From Pseudomonadota bacterium (lineage in GTDB: Bacteria; Desulfobacterota; Binatia; Binatales; Binataceae), in the NCBI GenBank assembly GCA_021324755.1, contig JAJPIL010000014.1, forward strand, positions 186,001 to 250,000: a stretch of 64,000 bases of DNA, in the 5' to 3' direction. Under the pieces are notes generated by a model. It saw nothing but the letters and a program-made list of their open reading frames with translations, had not been told where the DNA came from and did no database searches. Made by a program: the position numbers and the translations under genes. This document shows positions 13,711 to 23,982 of this stretch, piece after piece. How positions within the stretch are numbered: the stretch's first letter is position 1; each line of letters opens with the position of its first letter.

Positions 13711-14823
13711 TTAACCCGACGACCTATGAGCAGCTATGGGTGTTGCCGCTTGCCCCGAGGCCACAGACCTCGATAACGCCACCGCTCGCGCCGTATTCGC
13801 CACGAACATCACCACGGCGACCACGTTTAAAAGCCCGCCCCATCGGTAGGCCAAATACGATCCCCAAAGATCGCCCCCTATGCGTTGCGCTAAAGAGGCG
13901 TGCAGCAAAGCGACGTGAGCGTAAAATGCGCGCCGGTAAGGCAATGGGCGTTGAAGCACTGACGGAAATATAATCGGGGCGTGCGCAAATATCATCGACA
14001 AAACAAAGCCTACAAATACGGCATGCAGTATGATGTCGTAATGGAATGTGGTCAGGTTATCGCCGAACCAAAGCCACGCTGCGCCGCCTAGTCCGAGCCA
14101 AAAATACCCCGTCAGTAGATTGACCGCGATAAAACGCGTAAGCCCTTTCTGCTTGACGGTTCTGCGCGCCAAGTCATAGCGCGTAAGCCACAGCGCCAGG
14201 GCCACCATTCCAAAACCAGCAAGTCTGAGCCCTAGCGCAGGGAGCTTGTGCGCAACAAAAAGACCGACAATGAACGGGGCGACGCTCAACGTGAACGAAA
14301 GTCGGTTTCGGTCAGCCATTCCAGTAAGCCGACTCAATTCGAGCCGCTCTCCTACGATTGTCAGGACCAGAAATGCCGTCCACCAGAAGAACACGCCGGT
14401 CATCGGTGCGCCCGCAAGCCACAAAAAGTTACCGATAAACCAGGCAACTGCTCCAAACGCCATCGTGACCGTAAACAATGCGGTCTGTCGGCGAAGAATT
14501 GCCGCGAAGTCCCCGATTAAACAGAGGCTGGCGAAATTGATGAGAGCCGCTCCGATAGGCTCCGAACGCCCACTGATCAGGGCCAACGCACCTGTTGCGC
14601 TTAGGACCGGAGCCGCGTAGCCAAAGGTCGTCCCCAAGGCTACCGCGCGTTCGAGGCTAATCAGCGTGCCAAGAAAACCGCAGACCATAAGCGGCCCGTG
14701 GATGATGTAGAGATTGTCCTCGATTGGCGGCACGCTCCATCCCAAGCGCAAAAGCCCCGCCCATAGTCCCGCCAGTAGAGCGAAAATCGACAGCGCTAAA
14801 AGCGGCAGTCGCCTGTAGTTCAC
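13711..14823 (-). CDS. Polytopic membrane protein, NnrS-like, about 370 aa
   Basis: Very hydrophobic protein with about 10-12 predicted membrane spans. Conserved-looking histidines sit at membrane edges: HGPLM in an early span, HYDIILHAVF and FAHAPIIFP later, then YAHVALLHASLAQ. This resembles the NnrS family, heme- and copper-containing membrane proteins linked to nitric-oxide metabolism, but similarity is judged by eye. The reading frame extends upstream to 15006, but its first 60 residues are hydrophilic and low-complexity. I prefer the GTG at 14823, with AGGTAAGG just before it. The gene lies downstream of the ferredoxin and hemerythrin operon on the same strand, which fits a nitrosative-stress role. 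Confidence 0.6.
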   Translation of the reverse strand: MNYRRLPLLALSIFALLAGLWAGLLRLGWSVPPIEDNLYIIHGPLMVCGFLGTLISLERAVALGTTFGYAAPVLSATGALALISGRSEPIGAALINFASLCLIGDFAAILRRQTALFTVTMAFGAVAWFIGNFLWLAGAPMTGVFFWWTAFLVLTIVGERLELSRLTGMADRNRLSFTLSVAPFIVGLFVAHKLPALGLRLAGFGMVALALWLTRYDLARRTVKQKGLTRFIAVNLLTGYFWLGLGGAAWLWFGDNLTTFHYDIILHAVFVGFVLSMIFAHAPIIFPSVLQRPLPYRRAFYAHVALLHASLAQRIGGDLWGSYLAYRWGGLLNVVAVVMFVANTARAVALSRSVASGQAATPIAAHRSSG

Positions 14824-15508
14824 GTCCTTACCTGCTAACTGACCGCTGGCGGTAGCCTGCTTGACAACGGACGCTTTTGTTTCTGCCGATCCGCCAGGGT
14901 TGTTTCGCCGACCCCGTGTTTCGTAATTGCCACATGCGCGCGACTTTAGACGGCCTTGTTTTATGCTCACACGGTCATGTCGGCGAAACTCTGGTTGCTT
15001 GGGCAACGACCGCCGTCATCCTCCCAGCGGAGCAACGCGCAGTAGTCGAGCCATTCCTCGTCCGCCACTATCGGCAAACCAGCCGCTACTTGCTGTCGAC
15101 CCTGGCCGAGAAAAAGTAACGTAGCCTCCTTGTCAGCTATCTGGTTATGAGCTTGTGAGAGTTTTTGTGTACCCACGACCGCTTCCTCGCTTAAGCTTAC
15201 TGTCCGTCAGGTTTCGCCAACAGAAACCAGCGGTGAGCGCGCAAAAGCGGGAAGGTTTAGCACGTAGACGTTCCTAGAAAATTTAGTAAGGCCCGCATTT
15301 TCGCGGTACAAGTCCGCTCGGGTCGCGTAGCTTAAGGCCGCCTTTTTCGGGTCCGGTTTTGGAGGTGTCGACCAGATGGCATAATTTGTGACCCACTACA
15401 AGCTGAAAAAGTCTTTCAAGGCTTGACGGCTTTCTATCAACGTTGCGCGCTTGACCGGGCTTTTTCTGTCATGCGCTCGCGTAACTGTTCGCTTTCGAGT
15501 CTATTCCG
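14824..15508. other. Approx. 685-bp region without an assignable gene
   Basis: Between the membrane protein and the ferredoxin. A 69-codon minus-strand frame (14967-15176) is open but has no recognisable motif and overlaps the possible upstream extension of the membrane protein. I see no terminator or repeat. It may contain the membrane protein's promoter or decayed coding sequence. Confidence 0.4.
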
Positions 15509-15871
15509 TTATTTGGAGTCCGTCTCGAGCCCCCATTTTCGCTTGTTCGCCAAGACCTGTTCGGGCGTAGGAGCAGGCTTCTCTTCGAACCGTTTGACTC
15601 GGAACTGATCCGGAAACTCCACCGTCTTGGCGTTGAGCGCTATGTCGTCCTTGAAGAGTTCAGGCACTTCGGGCTCTTCATAAATCGCCTGCCAGGGACA
15701 CTCGGGCTCACACGCTCCGCAATCTATACATTCATCGGGATTTATGTAGAGCTGATTGGGGAAGTGCTCGCGATCGTCGCCAACGTATTCGTAGATACAG
15801 TCGACGGGACAGACGCTGACGCATCCGGTGTCGAGACAGTCAATGCAGAGCCTTGTTATTACCCACGGCAT
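15509..15871 (-). CDS. fdxA: Seven-iron-type ferredoxin (FdxA-like), 120 aa
   Basis: Small electron carrier with two Fe-S clusters. Cysteines fall at C9, C12, C17, C21 and C25, followed by the second motif DECIDCGACEPECPWQAI. This is the layout of 3Fe-4S/4Fe-4S ferredoxins such as FdxA of mycobacteria and pseudomonads. The C-terminal 50 residues form the usual extension without cysteines. The ATG at 15871 has TTAGGAG before it. It lies 182 bp downstream of the DUF4213/DUF364 gene and may belong to that transcript or have its own promoter. Its partner is unknown; FdxA proteins are often induced by low oxygen or NO. Confidence 0.92.
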   Translation of the reverse strand: MPWVITRLCIDCLDTGCVSVCPVDCIYEYVGDDREHFPNQLYINPDECIDCGACEPECPWQAIYEEPEVPELFKDDIALNAKTVEFPDQFRVKRFEEKPAPTPEQVLANKRKWGLETDSK

Positions 15872-16053: not shown

Positions 16054-16887
16054 CTAGGCAGCGGCTCTGGAGGGCCAAACCGACGAGTCGATAAGGCAGA
16101 CCTTCCGAGCGGCCCGCTCGAAAAGGTAACCCGAACCGCCCTGGCCTACGATCGTCAGTAGCTCGCGCGCGTTCAGAGCGCGAATACCGCCTAGAACCGC
16201 GATGCCGCTTCTAAAAAATGGGAGCGGCCACAGCGGCGTTGTGGGTCCCGCCATGACGCAGATGCGCGCCGACCTTGAAGCTTGAAGTAGTTCATCGATT
16301 CCACCTTCGACCAAGGCCGAACCAGAGAAGATAACGACGGTCGCCTTACGGAGCGCTTCGATCGCGAACTGCGGATGAATCCAAAGCGAGCGCTCGTCGG
16401 GCTTCAGGGCCTCGCGATGCTTGTCGATTACATTAAGACTAATTACCCGCCCTTTGAGCCGTTTTATGAAAGGGACGAACGCCCCGACCATCGCAACGCG
16501 GTCTTCGGGCGTTATCGCAGCCGCCTCCAGCGCGTCAAGCTCCTGTTGTACCGTCCCATCCGGCAGGCCATAGCAGTCGACAGCCGCAGCGGAAAGCGCG
16601 TTGAGCGTTGCGACTCCCAGCGCTCGCCTTAGCGCGCTCGGCGAAAAGGCGTATTTAGCCAAATCCCAAGCCTTGATCCCGATAAGCTGTCCCGCCGGTG
16701 GCGCTCCAGCAGCGGTCTTTGGGCAGCATACGGTATCGCTCAAGTCTCGAGGGGTGAACGCCACGCCTACATTGCCGGTTGAAATTTCAACCGCGGTGTA
16801 GAAAACGCCCAAACGCGCATCGCTTACGAGCGGCTCGGCGCCATAATTTCGCCGTAGGTCCGAAAACCATTTCTCGATGAGTTCCAT
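16054..16887 (-). CDS. DUF4213/DUF364 family protein, 277 aa
   Basis: An N-terminal DUF4213-like part (about residues 5-95) precedes a DUF364 part (about 130-265), the pair described in Pfam as a putative heavy-metal chelation family; assignment is by eye. Seen in sequence are a Cys-Cys pair in TVCCPKTAAG (about residue 54), a nucleotide-fold-like MVGAFVPFIKRL, FSGSALVEGG and VMAGPTTPLWP. No membrane segment is present, so it should be cytosolic. The ATG at 16887 follows GGAGG. It is the third gene of a likely operon with the hemerythrin-DUF2249 and MIP18-type genes (20 bp gap). The context suggests metal handling linked to Fe-S repair, but no function is established here. Confidence 0.75.
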   Translation of the reverse strand: MELIEKWFSDLRRNYGAEPLVSDARLGVFYTAVEISTGNVGVAFTPRDLSDTVCCPKTAAGAPPAGQLIGIKAWDLAKYAFSPSALRRALGVATLNALSAAAVDCYGLPDGTVQQELDALEAAAITPEDRVAMVGAFVPFIKRLKGRVISLNVIDKHREALKPDERSLWIHPQFAIEALRKATVVIFSGSALVEGGIDELLQASRSARICVMAGPTTPLWPLPFFRSGIAVLGGIRALNARELLTIVGQGGSGYLFERAARKVCLIDSSVWPSRAAA

Positions 16888-16907
16888 CTAAGCCTCCGCT
16901 CTCCTGA

Positions 16908-17210
16908 TTACTGCCAGCCGAGTTGTCGTCTGCCTTCCTCGGAGATCATCCATGGCGCCCAAGGCGGATCCCAGACCAGTTGTACGTCGACTTTTTTCAC
17001 TTCCTTACACTGATTTAGAATCGCTTGGCGCACCTCTTCGGTCAAATATGAATGCATCGGGCAGGCCGGTGTCGTCATCGTCATCGCAATGCGCACGCGC
17101 TCGGCTTCGACCTCCACGCCGTAGACAAGCCCCAGATCGACGATGTTCACCCCGACCTCGGGATCGTTGACCGTCCGTAGAGCTCGCAGAATGTCATCTT
17201 CGCTGACCAC
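16908..17210 (-). CDS. MIP18/PaaD-type metal-sulfur cluster assembly factor (DUF59), 100 aa
   Basis: Small SufT/PaaD-family protein with the landmarks DPEVGVNIVDLGLVYGV (residues 16-32), TTPACPM carrying the reactive cysteine, and DPPWAPWMIS near the end. Family members help insert or repair Fe-S clusters. The start is GTG 17210 with GAGGAGG upstream. It lies 40 bp after the hemerythrin-DUF2249 gene and 20 bp before the DUF4213/DUF364 gene, so co-transcription is very likely. In denitrifiers, genes of this type sit beside DUF2249 and hemerythrin genes, which fits Fe-S maintenance under NO stress. Confidence 0.9.
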   Translation of the reverse strand: MVSEDDILRALRTVNDPEVGVNIVDLGLVYGVEVEAERVRIAMTMTTPACPMHSYLTEEVRQAILNQCKEVKKVDVQLVWDPPWAPWMISEEGRRQLGWQ

Positions 17211-17250
17211 TTCGACCTCCTCTCTCAGCTAATCGGATGTAGCGCGGCTA

Positions 17251-17976
17251 TCAGCTTTTGCGCCCGATTCGAACTCGCCACACCTCGGGTCCTTGCTCGA
17301 GGTAATCCCACGAGAACTGACCTGTGTGTTCGGCCTCGAACTGGTAGTACAAAGGCCGGGGGTCGTGGTCGTTGACCAGAATAAAGGCCTCGCCAGGCTT
17401 AAGGCTCATGAACGTATCGAAAATCAAGGTGTGTCTTTCTCTGGGTACGATCTCGCGAACGTCGAGTAATCGTTCTTGGGACATCTTTTCCTTCCTCCTT
17501 CTTTGGTATGACTCGTGAATCGACCGAAGTACGGCGTTTTGTCGTTCCTTGTCGACGTATTTTTCGATTAGCGGCAGATAAATCCGTTCCTCCTTGGCCA
17601 AGTGAAGCTCTACGACCGCGTCGAGCCGCAGCGCTAGCTCCCGTAGCCGAGGCAGGAGTTGCGAGCGCTCCGGTTCGGATGCGACTTCGAGCTGTCGCGT
17701 TAACTCTTCGATGCGCGCTACGTAGTCCTTGATGAACTCATGGTCGACAGACATCGTCGCTGTCGGCCTTCCATGTTGTCGCAAGAGGTCGTCCACCAAC
17801 GGGTACAGCTGACGCTCCTCTCCGTCAGCGTGGGGGAGCAAATCGCCTTTCAAAAAGTTGACGAAGGCGTCCCGTTCTGTTTGCGGTTCCTTTCCGCCGA
17901 CTCCGCGCGCATGTGCGTGCAGGGTCTTGGCCAAACTCAAGTGATGTTGGCGAATAGCGTCAGCTAGGCTGCCCAT
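17251..17976 (-). CDS. Hemerythrin-like HHE domain fused to DUF2249, 241 aa
   Basis: The first 160 residues form an HHE four-helix bundle with the expected metal ligands: QHHLSLAKTLHAH, LLPHADGEERQLYP, SVDHEF and ELHLAKEERIYLP. After a short linker the last 70 residues match DUF2249 (LDVREIVPRERHTLIFDTF ... YYQFEAEHTGQFSWDYL). HHE proteins bind a di-iron centre and sense or handle O2 or NO. The DUF2249 domain is common near denitrification genes. The ATG at 17976 has AAAGGAG upstream, and a promoter with an NsrR-like operator follows. First gene of the HHE/MIP18/DUF364 operon. Ligand identity is inferred by pattern. Confidence 0.9.
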   Translation of the reverse strand: MGSLADAIRQHHLSLAKTLHAHARGVGGKEPQTERDAFVNFLKGDLLPHADGEERQLYPLVDDLLRQHGRPTATMSVDHEFIKDYVARIEELTRQLEVASEPERSQLLPRLRELALRLDAVVELHLAKEERIYLPLIEKYVDKERQNAVLRSIHESYQRRRKEKMSQERLLDVREIVPRERHTLIFDTFMSLKPGEAFILVNDHDPRPLYYQFEAEHTGQFSWDYLEQGPEVWRVRIGRKS

Positions 17977-18023
17977 CTCTCCTGCTCCTTTACAAGACTA
18001 CCTTCGGTTCCGTCGACCATTAC

Positions 18024-18040
18024 ATGTATTACATATACAT
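18024..18040. promoter_or_regulatory. NsrR-type operator palindrome
   Basis: The 17-bp sequence ATGTAT-TACAT-ATACAT is a perfect 6+6 inverted repeat with a 5-bp spacer. It matches the ATGYAT-N5-ATRCAT core of binding sites known for the nitric-oxide-sensing repressor NsrR. It lies 48 bp upstream of the hemerythrin-DUF2249 start and overlaps the predicted -10 element, the position expected for repression. No nsrR gene is in the window. Chance occurrence of a 12-position match at a fitting promoter is unlikely. Confidence 0.7.
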
Positions 18041-18059
18041 CTTTCGAGACCTCGGTCAA
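18032..18059 (-). promoter_or_regulatory. Predicted sigma-70-type promoter of the hemerythrin operon
   Basis: On the minus strand TTGACC (18059-18054) matches the -35 consensus at five of six positions. After 16 bases comes TATATG (18037-18032) as a -10 (four of six). The -10 lies inside the NsrR-like palindrome. Transcription would start near 18025, leaving a leader of about 50 bases. Confidence 0.5.
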
Positions 18060-18920
18060 GAAACCGTCAGCAGAATTTGTCGCTATTTTGAGAGCGAGTA
18101 CGAATCACTGAGCTGGTGCCAGTTAGCTCCTGATTTCCGAGCTAACCTTGCAGCAGCTCTGGTAGCTTTAACGCACGTGGAAGGGCAGTGCGTTGTGGGT
18201 GAGCTCAAGGCACAGCCCGTTGAGCACGTCCGACACGCACGCGCACTGGGCGCAAGCGAACGAACGCACGATCTACAGCGCCCTGATTGCCTGGGTGGAG
18301 CCGCAAATACGAGATGGTGAAGCGGGCGAGCTTCGCTTTATTTTGCACAAAGGTGTCGGTTCGGCTTTGTTGAGCGAAGGCAAGAGGTATCGAAGCTGAT
18401 TTGGTGACGACACGAACTGGCCGGCGACATATGCTCAGATGAGCATCACGGCTGTCTCAACGCACGAAAAGGCGAGCGCGAACTTTGGGGGATACGAAGT
18501 GCGACTAAATCCTAACGGTTGGCTCAAAACAAAAGGAGCAGTGGCTTTGAGCTCAAGCCAGATGTGCGCACGTTGATAACTTGCGGATCGCAGTCAAGGT
18601 AAGCCAGGTGGCAAAGGAGAATCGACCGTTGGACTGACGAGGTGCGCGGATGTCCGCATGTAAGTCTCTTGCACTACGTCATCCCACCTTTTTCTCTTCT
18701 TCTCGTCGCCTTAGATCGATCGCGCCACTCGATAAAGTCGCTGATTATGCCTTTTGACGGTCAGCTCGAAGAGGTCGATTTCTCCGGCGCGAAATCGTCG
18801 TGCGCTCGAGCCGTGCCTTACGGATGTAGCCGCGTCAGCGCTCGACTTTTGTCGTCCAGACCGGCATTGTCTGTCGGCGCAGAAAGATGAAGATGCTCGC
18901 TCCGGTGGATTATCTGCGTG
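18060..18920. other. Approx. 860-bp region without an assignable gene
   Basis: This is the longest gap of the window. A plus-strand frame ending at 18399 contains ANERT followed by LIAWV, faintly like DUF202 membrane proteins, but no membrane spans follow. I therefore do not call a gene. Nothing resembling a transposase, tRNA or tandem repeat was found. Decayed coding sequence is a reasonable guess. Confidence 0.45.
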
Positions 18921-20041: not shown

Positions 20042-21589
20042 CTACGCCTTACGGGCGCCGATTGGCGGAGCCGGAGGTGTAAAGACGTTGCGAGCAAATG
20101 CGTCCGCCAGGCGCAACAGAAGGTCATCCTCGCCGTGCCTGCCGATCAACATCATTCCGACCGGAAGTCCCTCGGACATCGCGCACGGCACGTTGATCGC
20201 TGGATGGCCCGTTACGTCGAAGGGCGCTGTGTTGGGGATCATCTCCAGCGCTCTCGTGACGTACTCGGCTAAAGGCGCGTTTGCGTCGGGAATTGGTGTT
20301 GCCTTCATGGGGAGCGTGGGCATCACGAGCGCGTCGCACTGCTGTAGCGCCTGATCGTAGGCTGCACGCAAAACGCGCGCTAGATTCTGCGCTTTAGCGT
20401 AATAGCGTCCGTGGTAGTAATCCTGCATATATTGGCCGATCAATACGGTAAGCTTAGTCGTCTCGGAGAGATCTTGGGCGCGGGTCAGGCGTCCTCGCGC
20501 GTAGGCGTCTAGCAGGCTTGTCGTGTAATGTCCCTTCCAGTTGGTGCCCATCGAGTTCCCGGCTACCATCAACATGGTAGCGCCCTCCAGAGCGATTCCG
20601 TTCCAGATATGGATACCGTGCGAATGCCATGGGACGCTGACTTCTGTCACCTGGCAACCTAGGCGTTCGAAAGCGCGCGCGGCTTGACGTACGGCCTCGT
20701 CCACGTCCTGCTGTGATCGCCCGGGCAGGCTGAAGCCTTCTCTCACGACACCTAGCTTAAGGCCACGCACCTCCCCGGTTAGCATCTTGGAATAAGCTTT
20801 GCCACTTGGTCCGCCCGCCTGGCGCGGGTCGAGCCCATCAGGTCCGGCGATAACTTCGAGCAAGAGCGCGACGTCTGCGCAGGTGCGCGCCATCGGTCCC
20901 GCGTGATCCAGCGTCATCTCGATCGGAAAGACCCCTGTGTACGGGACTAACCCGTAGGTCGGTTTCAGTCCGTAGATCCCGCACCAGCAACTGGGGATAC
21001 GGATCGAGCCACCCTGGTCGCCTCCGATGGCCATATCGACCTCGCCGATTGCCACTAACACTGCGCTTCCGCTCGACGAGCCTCCGGCGGAGCGCTCTGG
21101 GTTGTATGGATTACGCACGGGTCCGGTGTCGCTGGTAAAGCTGCTTCCCGAAAAGCACAAGCTTTCGCACACCGCCTTACCTAAAATGGTTCCTCCGGCA
21201 TCGAGGATGCGGGTGACTATGGTGGCATCGGCCTCGGGCACGTAGCCTTCCAGCACGGCCGTGCCGTTCATCATGGGGACTCCAGCAACGCACACATTGT
21301 CTTTGATCGCAACCGTTTTGCCCTTCAAAGGCCCTTCAGAAGCTCCGGTAATCTCAGTTCGCCAGTACCATGCCCCAAGCGGGTTCTCTTCTGGCTTGGG
21401 CCTCCATCCGCTCGACCTCGGATACTTCACAGTGGCGTGTGGTTCGGGCAGCGCGTCCAGTTGTGAGTACGAAGCCAACACCGGTCCCATCAGCTCGCGA
21501 AACTCGCTCAGGCGCGCGTCGGATAACTGCATCCCATAACGCTCTGCAATACGCTTTAGTTGATCTAAAGTTGGAACTTTGACCGACAT
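20042..21589 (-). CDS. Amidase (amidase signature family, nitrile-pathway type), 515 aa
   Basis: Hydrolyses amides to carboxylic acid and ammonia. The Ser-cisSer-Lys triad is complete: Lys96 in VAIKDN, Ser171 in SAGGSSSGS and Ser195 in GGDQGGSIRIP, with Asp191 and Cys203 nearby. These numbers coincide with those I recall for Rhodococcus nitrile-pathway amidases (Asp191/Ser195). The length of about 515 also matches that subfamily rather than GatA. The ATG at 21589 follows GAGGG. It is placed 70 bp after the hemerythrin and downstream of nitrile hydratase beta-alpha-activator on the same strand. It should act on the amide made by that hydratase. The Rhodococcus-like features may indicate horizontal transfer; that is inference. 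Confidence 0.93.
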   Translation of the reverse strand: MSVKVPTLDQLKRIAERYGMQLSDARLSEFRELMGPVLASYSQLDALPEPHATVKYPRSSGWRPKPEENPLGAWYWRTEITGASEGPLKGKTVAIKDNVCVAGVPMMNGTAVLEGYVPEADATIVTRILDAGGTILGKAVCESLCFSGSSFTSDTGPVRNPYNPERSAGGSSSGSAVLVAIGEVDMAIGGDQGGSIRIPSCWCGIYGLKPTYGLVPYTGVFPIEMTLDHAGPMARTCADVALLLEVIAGPDGLDPRQAGGPSGKAYSKMLTGEVRGLKLGVVREGFSLPGRSQQDVDEAVRQAARAFERLGCQVTEVSVPWHSHGIHIWNGIALEGATMLMVAGNSMGTNWKGHYTTSLLDAYARGRLTRAQDLSETTKLTVLIGQYMQDYYHGRYYAKAQNLARVLRAAYDQALQQCDALVMPTLPMKATPIPDANAPLAEYVTRALEMIPNTAPFDVTGHPAINVPCAMSEGLPVGMMLIGRHGEDDLLLRLADAFARNVFTPPAPPIGARKA

Positions 21590-21659: not shown

Positions 21660-22151
21660 CTAAATTGTGGGTGGGCGCGTAGCGCAACGAGCGCTACATA
21701 CCCAATCCTGCGGCGCCGTTGCAACCGAGCAGCTCCTTAGCAACTCGGCGCTAGCAGCCGGCCCGAGCAAGTCCAAAAGATCCGGATATATTCCCATGTC
21801 CTCTTCTGCGCTGTGTATCGCAAGCAATCGCGCTAGCGCCTGCGTCGATTTTTTAAGTGACCCGATATCTTGCTGTCGATGAGCCTCCGACCATAGCTTT
21901 TCCGCCGCGTCCCAGATAAAACCGTGCCCTTCGAGCAATAGCGCCACAACCTCTTTGAACTTATGCTCCGCCCTTGGGAACACCAACTTTTCTTCCACGT
22001 ACATATGTCGGCGAAGCTCGGCGCGTGCGCTCTCAAGCAGAGGTAGCTCGACTAGGCCTTCGTCGAGCTTTTCTTCGAATTCGATAAGCCAGCCTTCGAT
22101 CCTGCGATGTGCATGCTGGAGGAAAAGTTCGATCGTTTCCGTGTCAAGCAT
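21660..22151 (-). CDS. Stand-alone hemerythrin-like HHE protein, 163 aa
   Basis: Single HHE four-helix bundle. Likely di-iron ligands are seen in HAHRRIEGW, HMYVEEKLVFP, EGHGFIWD and AIHSAEEDMGIYP, the order expected for the family. The last 25 residues include two cysteines and look disordered. It shares the fold but little else with the HHE domain at 17251-17976. It is located 38 bp after the nitrile hydratase activator and 70 bp before the amidase, on the same strand, so it is part of that operon by position. Hemerythrins are not standard partners of nitrile hydratase. Oxygen or NO handling near a cysteine-oxidised metal enzyme is a guess. Confidence 0.85.
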   Translation of the reverse strand: MLDTETIELFLQHAHRRIEGWLIEFEEKLDEGLVELPLLESARAELRRHMYVEEKLVFPRAEHKFKEVVALLLEGHGFIWDAAEKLWSEAHRQQDIGSLKKSTQALARLLAIHSAEEDMGIYPDLLDLLGPAASAELLRSCSVATAPQDWVCSARCATRPPTI

Positions 22152-22189: not shown

Positions 22190-22534
22190 TTAGTCTGACT
22201 GGTTCTCACGCCGGCCAACCTTGAGCTCGCTATCTTTTAGGACTCCTCGCTCAAGCAAGAGCCTCTCGAGGCTGTCTAGCCAGAACGCGTAAAAGCGGAA
22301 TTTGTCTTCCTGACCTCGATTGGCGCGTTCCCACGCCGAAATCGCAGCGACGACTCGCCAACGTAGCTCATCGAAGCTTATAACCCCTTTCTCGCAGAGC
22401 GCGATCGCCATGCCGAACACCTCTCGTTCCCACGGCGCTTCGAACACGAGTTCTCCGCTCTTTCGAGGTAGCATCGCGGCAATCCTCGCCCGCACCGTCA
22501 GCTCAGACGGCGCATTTCCAACTTCCTCGTTCAC
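22190..22534 (-). CDS. Nitrile hydratase accessory/activator protein, 114 aa
   Basis: Small beta-subunit-like protein of the nitrile hydratase activator family, which delivers cobalt by subunit swapping in Co-type enzymes. Seen are FEAPWEREVFGMAIALCEKG and FDELRWRVVAAISAWE, resembling the N-terminal half of the beta subunit, then FYAFWLDSLERLLLERG. I chose GTG 22534 because a strong AAAGGAGG lies about ten bases upstream; the frame continues 15 codons further up. It starts 85 bp after the alpha subunit stop. The order beta-alpha-activator is the usual one for cobalt nitrile hydratases. Confidence 0.9.
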   Translation of the reverse strand: MNEEVGNAPSELTVRARIAAMLPRKSGELVFEAPWEREVFGMAIALCEKGVISFDELRWRVVAAISAWERANRGQEDKFRFYAFWLDSLERLLLERGVLKDSELKVGRRENQSD

Positions 22535-22619
22535 AAGTAAACCACCTCCTTTGCTCGCGCCTCTCGGCCACAGCCCCATCGGCCCGAAACCGACGAGCAG
22601 GGGCCAGTAAGCAGCTTAG

Positions 22620-23267
22620 CTAGCTCAGCGAGGACGGAGGAAGAGGATCGCCCACCCCGATCATGGAGTCGCGCGTCACCAGTTTGGCGAGATCTTCTTC
22701 CGTAAGCTTCTCGGTGCCCGAAGGCCTTTGCGGGAGCACGAAATACCTGATCTCCGCGCTGCTGTCCCAGACGTGAACCTCGACGTCATCGGGAATACTC
22801 AGTCCAAAGTCCTCGCGCAACGTCTGCCGTGGGTTGGCGACGAGGCGCGAACGATACTGGGGATATTTGTACCAGTTCGGCGGAAGGCCAAGCACCGGCC
22901 ATGGATAGCAGGAGCACAGAGTGCAGCATACGACATGGCGAACCTTGGGAGTGTTCTCAAGACAAACCATGTGCTCGCCTTGCATCCCACCGATCCCCAG
23001 CTCGGCACAGGCTTTAGTGGCGTCGGCCAAAAGCCTCTTCTTAAACTCAGGATCAACCCACGCCCGTGCAACGACTCGCGCCCCAAGTAACGGCCCAATA
23101 TCTTTCTCGTAGATGCTGACTACGCGCTCTATCATGTCGGAACTTAAAAAGCCCTTTTCGATCAAGAGCGCTTGAAGTGCCTTGGTGCGTGCGGTCAGTT
23201 CTTCCTCGCTGAGAGGGTATTGTTGAGGAATGGGAAGAGGGCTTCCCTTGTAACGCGCCTCGCTCAT
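22620..23267 (-). CDS. nthA: Nitrile hydratase alpha subunit, cobalt type, 215 aa
   Basis: Catalytic subunit that hydrates nitriles to amides. The metal-binding claw is intact: Cys115-Thr-Leu-Cys118-Ser119-Cys120, followed by [14 protein letters not shown]. Thr at the second position is the mark of Co(III) enzymes (Fe(III) enzymes have Ser). Two of the cysteines should be oxidised to sulfenic and sulfinic acid. An extra Cys114 directly precedes the motif. Length is normal for the family. It starts 34 bp after the beta subunit stop, and both subunits form a heterodimer or heterotetramer in the cytosol. No cobalt transporter gene is seen in the locus. Confidence 0.96.
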
Positions 23268-23301
23268 TTCAATAGTTCTCCCACGCGTTAGAGACTGTTT
23301 A

Positions 23302-23982
23302 CTACGCCGGCTCGAGATAGCTTTCCCAAAGATCGACGTAAATCGTTTCGTTTGGTTCGGCGCTATCCCAACCCCATAATTCCCACGCCGGAAAAGCTAC
23401 GCTGTAGACTGGCTGGGGATTTTCTCCTTTGCCGAGCGCGTTGGTGTCCGGTGTTACGAAAGTACCGTGAACTTTGTGAATCACGCCTCGCTTGCCTCGC
23501 ACGTAACGCGCAAGCCGAGTATGGCCGGTCGGATTGATATTCTTAGCGCGCACGGGCTGGCCGACGGCAAATCGCGGGCTGACCACCGAAGGACGCGTAC
23601 AGGGAGCCCCTCTTTTGATTAGCGCCGCCATCCGGTCAGCGAGCTTGGGGTCTTTGCGCTCGGGCAATTGCGCCTGGGGATCCTCTCGATAGCGGCGTGC
23701 GCGCGCATCGAGTTCTTCTTTGCTGATAATACCTTTTTCTACGAGGCCCTTCTCGATCGTGAAGAGCCAATGTTCGTAGTACCGAGACGATAGGTAGTAG
23801 GCGGGATGCATCTGCTCGATGCCGAAGCGGAATTCGTCCACATTGATTAGCCCGTTGCCCAGTGTGGCGAAAAGAAGGGCAAAAACGCCTTTCTCCCATT
23901 CGCTATGGAAGACCGGTTCGTTCTCCTCGCGCTGAACGCGCCCTAATCCGTGAAAGCCGCCGAGATCGTGCGCACCATTCAT
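23302..23982 (-). CDS. nthB: Nitrile hydratase beta subunit, 226 aa
   Basis: Begins with the family hallmark [12 protein letters not shown] and continues through the helical N-terminal half ([32 protein letters not shown]). The C-terminal SH3-like barrel follows ([26 protein letters not shown] ... [13 protein letters not shown]). It is the structural partner of the alpha subunit. It is the first gene of the locus, with a G-rich stretch before the ATG at 23982. Downstream on the minus strand lie alpha, activator, hemerythrin and amidase. The beta-before-alpha order agrees with the cobalt-type motif in the alpha subunit. Confidence 0.96.

Follow-up and report, generated by a model that had tools for sequence, protein, structure and literature searches.

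Which signal switches on a three-gene operon headed by a hemerythrin-DUF2249 fusion, and what might its products do for the cell? The operon belongs to the genome of an uncultured soil bacterium of Candidatus Binataceae (Binatota) and lies in a 64,000-nucleotide stretch of DNA, the whole of which is called the window here. We have compared it with 41 genomes of the family and 148 genomes of the class. With a probability of about 0.85, we read the three genes as an operon that is repressed by an NsrR-type [4Fe-4S] Rrf2 protein and derepressed by nitric oxide (NO), and judging from its DNA the operon very probably serves in the response to nitric-oxide stress.

The operon and its products

All three genes are encoded on the minus strand. 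The first (17251..17976) specifies a hemerythrin-DUF2249 fusion of 241 residues (Pfam PF01814, 52.8 bits; PF10006, 108.9 bits), the second (16908..17210, with a GTG start) a MIP18/DUF59-type Fe-S assembly factor of 100 residues (FeS_assembly_P; PF01883, 75.6 bits), and the third (16054..16887) a DUF4213-DUF364 protein of 277 residues (putative heavy-metal chelation; PF04016, 122 bits; PF13938, 66 bits). The hemerythrin-DUF2249 and MIP18-type genes are separated by 40 bp, the MIP18-type and DUF4213-DUF364 genes by 20 bp, and a purine-rich ribosome site is present at each of the three starts (AAAGGAGCAGGAG, GAGAGAGGAGG, CAGGAGAGCGGAGG). An earlier sequence-only reading of this DNA had given the same layout, and all of its coordinates and both gaps proved exact.

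From an alignment of 30 sequences, it is clear that H49, E53, H79, H125 and E129 of the hemerythrin domain are invariant and that H12 is nearly so; these six residues are the likely di-iron ligands. The NDHDP motif of DUF2249 is conserved in the same manner, with N202, D203, H204 and P206 invariant and D205 near-invariant. The TusA motif is CPxP, and its cysteine is missing from the DUF2249 domain of the operon protein. In the predicted structure (pLDDT 93), the helical part aligns with known hemerythrin folds (FBXL5, target TM about 0.72), and the model also matches TusA/SirA-like proteins (probability 0.94-1.0, target TM 0.64-0.69, E above 0.1) over the length of one further domain, a match that was assigned to DUF2249 by size. 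A TusA-like fold for DUF2249 may thus be taken as a lead only.

Pfam shows only Hemerythrin and DUF2249 in the lead protein, the N-terminal ScdA_N/DUF542 domain being absent, and the RIC model TIGR03652 was missed by far (35.6 of the required 204.7 bits); the lead gene of the operon is not RIC/YtfE. The MIP18-type protein likewise missed both the SufT model (101.2 of 202.6 bits) and the SUF-associated model (99.9 of 143.4 bits), and it also fell below the cut-off of the PaaD model.

The failure of the RIC model would suit products whose task, under the same NsrR regulation, is to sense NO, oxygen or metals or to detoxify them, without any Fe-S repair. Hemerythrin domains often bind O2, and the DUF2249 proteins DrpA and DrpB have been proposed as nitrate sensors (PMC6282519), which are both in keeping with such a role. 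We consider it a serious possibility with the odds leaning against it, since YtfE chains were the only solved relatives of the hemerythrin domain detected in a PDB sequence search, and since the MIP18-type factor and ferredoxins accompany hemerythrin-DUF2249 across the family. The nitrosative-stress repair system proposed in the sequence-only reading is a role that we infer from the domains and their regulation.

An NsrR-like regulator

Three Rrf2 proteins are encoded in the genome. One of them, on contig C29 (G000:C29:120600-121061; PF02082, 126.6 bits), is NsrR-like, in agreement with the earlier supposition that nsrR would be present. Its best PDB match is Streptomyces NsrR (5n07), and it is 42% identical to E. 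coli NsrR. The [4Fe-4S] ligand residues D8, C91, C99 and C105 are all present in the alignment; three cysteines and Asp8 are the reported ligands of the NsrR cluster (PMC5411485). The recognition helix carries SRNH, in which H40 aligns with H42 of ScNsrR, the residue of the Streptomyces protein that contacts operator DNA (PMC9338935). Among the NCBIfam models, NsrR (NF008240, 130.2 of 182 bits) and RirA (130.8 of 193 bits) are near-tied and were both missed, so the regulator is called 'NsrR-like' here and not a certified equivalog; NF008240 may be too narrow for the phylum Binatota. In an Rrf2 tree the regulator is found with E. coli NsrR and not with IscR, with weak support, and given the long branches and mostly open forks this tree is left out as proof.

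Plasmid-borne homologs of the regulator, 47-53% identical, adjoin NO genes. Their settings are FdxA with a truncated hemoglobin, hmp, a position near NnrS, and a position with NnrS on one side and a DUF2249-NO reductase pair on the other; FdxA adjoins the homolog in Rhizobium, and DUF2249 adjoins NO reductase in Eleftheria. A search for the operator core around four plasmid proteobacterial homologs gave no convincing operator at the promoters of the regulators or of their neighbours.

The tie between the RirA and NsrR models would be compatible with a regulator of RirA or IscR type that senses iron or Fe-S status, with the operon answering iron limitation or cluster damage in general and NO acting as only one trigger. 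The products of the operon are indeed iron and Fe-S proteins, and DUF364 has, from its structure and context, been linked to metal chelation and cofactor synthesis (PMC2954201). Such a sensor is nevertheless unlikely: the operator motif described below is the NsrR 23-mer, the SRNH helix with H40 is that of NsrR and not the E43/Q44 of IscR, the IscR model reaches only 48.6 bits on the regulator, and its homologs elsewhere adjoin hmp, NO reductase and NnrS.

A conserved predicted operator at the promoter

The site at which an NsrR-type repressor would act is a predicted operator with the core ATGTAT-N5-ATACAT at 18024-18040, which reads ATGTAT-ATGTA-ATACAT on the minus strand (18040-18024). On this strand, the -35 element TTGACC (18059-18054) is followed by 13 bp, the palindrome, 47 nt and the ATG of hemerythrin-DUF2249 at 17976. 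The -35 element (18054..18059) is assigned from its sequence and from the retention of TTGAC in most relatives, and the probable -10 element TATATG (18032..18037, minus strand, 16-bp spacer), which the operator overlaps, from conservation in relatives, where the equivalent position usually reads TATATT. The 'good predicted promoter' of the sequence-only reading holds for its -35 element; its -10 is poor, and it was not listed by a consensus promoter scan. The operon promoter is thus credible through its conservation and not through its own score in the window. A plus-strand open reading frame of 98 codons (18024-18320) begins inside the palindrome; in the clustering it stood alone, and it is unlikely to be a gene.

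The palindrome, which had been described as a perfect match to the NsrR core, was confirmed as such. It is the sole core match in the window even when two mismatches are allowed (0.45 expected), and the 3.07-Mb genome, scanned for perfect and one-mismatch matches, holds no other perfect copy. Under a first-order Markov model, 0.011 perfect cores would be expected in the genome and 7e-7 in a stretch of 200 bp. The reversed control pattern gave no matches genome-wide, and a positive control recovered the core before ytfE in E. coli MG1655.

Conservation in relatives, which the earlier reading had also anticipated, is extensive and includes flanks, unmentioned in that reading, that complete the 23-bp NsrR motif. 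Close hemerythrin-DUF2249 orthologs are found in 13 other genomes of the family, and the palindrome is present with 0-2 mismatches in 14 of the 15 orthologous upstream regions of 200 bp (P at most 0.008 for each of the 14 sites in dinucleotide shuffles). In the fifteenth region (genome G024) the MIP18 gene leads, and a one-mismatch site stands before it, having moved with the rearranged operon. When anchored on the palindrome, 20 sites give AAGATGTAT-N5-ATACATCTT, with AAG in the left flank (A 19/20, A 20/20, G 15/20), CTT in the right flank (C 12/20, T 19/20, T 18/20), and TTGAC starting 19 bp upstream of the palindrome in most of them. The resulting 23-bp family consensus, AAGATGTATATTAAATACATCTT, is the 11-1-11 NsrR motif of E. 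coli, in which the ytfE site is AAGATGCATTTAAAATGCATCTT (PMC5320621), and it also fits the motif gATGyAT-N5-ATrCATc of Rodionov et al. (PMC1274295). In the window, the left flank AAG fits the 23-bp motif and the right flank GTA differs from CTT at two positions.

Allowing at most one mismatch, the 23-bp motif has nine matches in the 148 class genomes (0.06 expected), all of them at the operon or the regulator gene, in seven Binataceae genomes. Most of the nine come from the set that defined the consensus, which makes the scan a test of specificity and not of discovery, and the window's own site, with its two right-flank departures, lies outside the nine. That the palindrome is a chance AT-rich feature of a promoter that is constitutive or under another regulator is extremely improbable and was ruled out by expectation, shuffles and conservation, since, although the match in the window overlaps a naturally AT-rich -10, only 0.01 perfect matches are expected per genome, the site is kept in nearly all orthologs together with flanks outside the -10, and the 23-mer occurs nowhere else in the class.

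A second hemerythrin gene of the same genome (G000:C12, L002 1501-2062, plus strand) is preceded by a site with one mismatch, 41 bp from the ATG and with TTGACC in place, and genome G008 has a perfect site before a ferredoxin-hemerythrin pair of the same kind as that on C12. The C12 gene is divergent from a [2Fe-2S] ferredoxin gene, and downstream of it are DUF488 and carboxymuconolactone decarboxylase-family genes. A one-mismatch site on contig C26 lies inside a LuxE-like open reading frame and was taken as chance. Five core matches elsewhere in the family, away from the operon (in G040, G039, G025, G004 and G019), were dropped as targets, since chance alone should give about 3 in the 41 genomes.

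Linkage of regulator and operon

Among the 41 family genomes, the regulator (E below 1e-44) is found in 16 and hemerythrin-DUF2249 in 14, and all 14 are within the 16 (hypergeometric tail 3e-9, a value that takes no account of kinship among the genomes and so overstates the co-occurrence). Within genera g12 and g14, however, where a member lacks either regulator or operon it lacks the other as well. Operon and regulator gene are neighbours in 11 of the 14 operon genomes, usually divergent and with the palindrome in between; in G015 and G002 the neighbouring copy of the regulator gene is short or has diverged, and in several genomes a DUF2249-hemerythrin gene stands ahead of the regulator gene. 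The system is scattered in the window's genome, with the operon in the window, the regulator on C29 and the second hemerythrin gene on C12; the C29 gene has no site of its own, and the operon is not adjacent to it. In G032 the operon is absent and an NsrR-like gene is preceded by the site aagATGGATTATAAATACATgtt (L095 1380). A site before the regulator gene, as in G032, suggests autoregulation and other targets.

Taken together, NsrR control of the operon, as first proposed for this locus, is supported by the site, the regulator gene, their co-occurrence and their usual adjacency. The predicted operator with its conservation and its full NsrR motif, and the putative repressor gene with its ligand residues, can like this linkage be read from the genomes directly, and they support the regulatory prediction about as strongly as sequence can.

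Genes around the operon and possible sources of NO

An FdxA-type ferredoxin of 120 residues (15509..15871, minus strand; NCBIfam NF058577, 54.9 bits, and NF045490, 80.4 bits, both below cut-off) is encoded 182 bp past the DUF364 gene in the window and directly after DUF364 in some relatives; its place on the same transcript as the operon is uncertain. Further on is the gene of a 12-helix membrane protein (13711..15006, minus strand), the true start of which is probably inside this open reading frame. This protein gave no match in Pfam, NCBIfam or PDB sequence searches. A haem-copper-oxidase-subunit-I fold is predicted for it, the model (pLDDT 86) resembling subunit I of cbb3 oxidase (TM 0.63, E 1e-3), and H103, H328 and H342 are invariant. 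Both genes recur beside the operon in relatives, and that of the membrane protein repeatedly adjoins hemerythrin-DUF2249 in many phyla.

Elsewhere in the window, a nitrile-hydratase-like cluster (22190-23982, minus strand) was recognised by eye. Its alpha-like subunit (22620-23267) has a CTLCSC motif as in cobalt-type enzymes, and related small genes lie on both sides of it. After the cluster come another hemerythrin-domain gene (21660-22151, minus strand; PF01814) and an amidase-like gene (20042-21589, minus strand). In G017, the related pair directly adjoins the NsrR-like gene (L057 10804-12131).

A globin domain search of the genome found none, hence no Hmp was found. A NirK-like protein reached 148 of the required 296 bits, far below the NirK cut-off, and no named NO reductase and no clear denitrification, NO-producing or NO-reducing enzyme was found in the genome. 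The searches gave four haem-copper oxidase matches. Their neighbours mark two of these as clear cytochrome oxidases, a third is a remote oxidase subunit and the fourth an unnamed 465-residue protein. The genome is 95% complete, and the absence of NO enzymes is therefore no proof. External NO from neighbouring denitrifiers would be the simplest source. DUF2249 had been said to occur usually near denitrification genes; the literature bears this out, linking the domain to nitrate respiration and denitrification (PMC6282519, PMC11218638), whereas the window's genome shows no clear enzyme of that pathway.

Proposed mechanism

For the mechanism, we infer the cluster chemistry, NO as the signal, repression and every enzymatic role by analogy, with characterised NsrR and RIC as the models for chemistry, signal and repair. 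The operon would comprise the three genes, possibly with the ferredoxin gene behind them, and its repressor would be the protein encoded at G000:C29:120600-121061. A dimer of the holo-repressor on the 23-bp operator, over the -10, would block transcription. NO would nitrosylate or destroy the [4Fe-4S] cluster, whereupon the repressor would leave and the operon be transcribed. The hemerythrin-DUF2249 protein may then bind, reduce or remove NO, or return iron to damaged Fe-S clusters, the MIP18-type factor and ferredoxins may help to rebuild these clusters, and the DUF364 protein may handle a metal or a metal-binding cofactor.

For DUF2249 and DUF364, two domains of unknown function, this reading offers a probable signal, NO via NsrR, and a defined pair of operator and regulator with which to test them. 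By sequence, it also brings an uncultured phylum, and a hemerythrin that is not RIC, under NsrR control, in a genome where no flavohemoglobin was found. More tentatively, hemerythrin-DUF2249, the MIP18-type factor, DUF364, the ferredoxin and the haem-copper-like membrane protein might form a second, RIC-independent route of NO repair that is spread across several phyla and NsrR-controlled in Binataceae. Should the products prove to repair Fe-S clusters, similar sets in Chloroflexota, Actinomycetes and other groups would represent a widespread alternative to RIC.

Comparison with known systems

The closest parallel is the NsrR-ytfE (RIC) system of E. coli, in which, as is predicted for the Binatota operon, a 23-bp NsrR operator stands before the gene of a di-iron hemerythrin-type protein. 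In contrast to YtfE, the Binatota protein is without the N-terminal ScdA/DUF542 domain and has a C-terminal DUF2249 domain, and the operon adds the MIP18-type and DUF364 genes, in a genome where no hmp was found. The NsrR-type regulators that proteobacteria encode beside hmp, NO reductase, NnrS, FdxA and DUF2249 are Rrf2 proteins homologous to that of Binatota and 44-56% identical to it; the predicted Binatota target, however, is a hemerythrin-DUF2249 fusion, with no NO reductase or flavohemoglobin identified.

In Thermoflexus, Ktedonobacterales, Tectomicrobia, Armatimonadota and Actinomycetes, subsets of the hemerythrin, DUF2249, MIP18 and DUF364 genes cluster likewise, and such clusters often include a haem-copper-like membrane protein, as in Binataceae. 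At these gene sets, the ATGTAT-N5-ATACAT site appeared in Binataceae alone, and not at the clusters of the other phyla examined. A more distant Rrf2 gene lies beside or just before hemerythrin-DUF2249 in Thermomicrobia and in Thermoflexus japonica (L120, L121, L122, L109); in Thermomicrobia, the space between the Rrf2 gene and the hemerythrin gene gave no convincing palindrome. The position of the Rrf2 gene suggests that regulators of this family act on the gene set outside Binatota as well, through a different operator.
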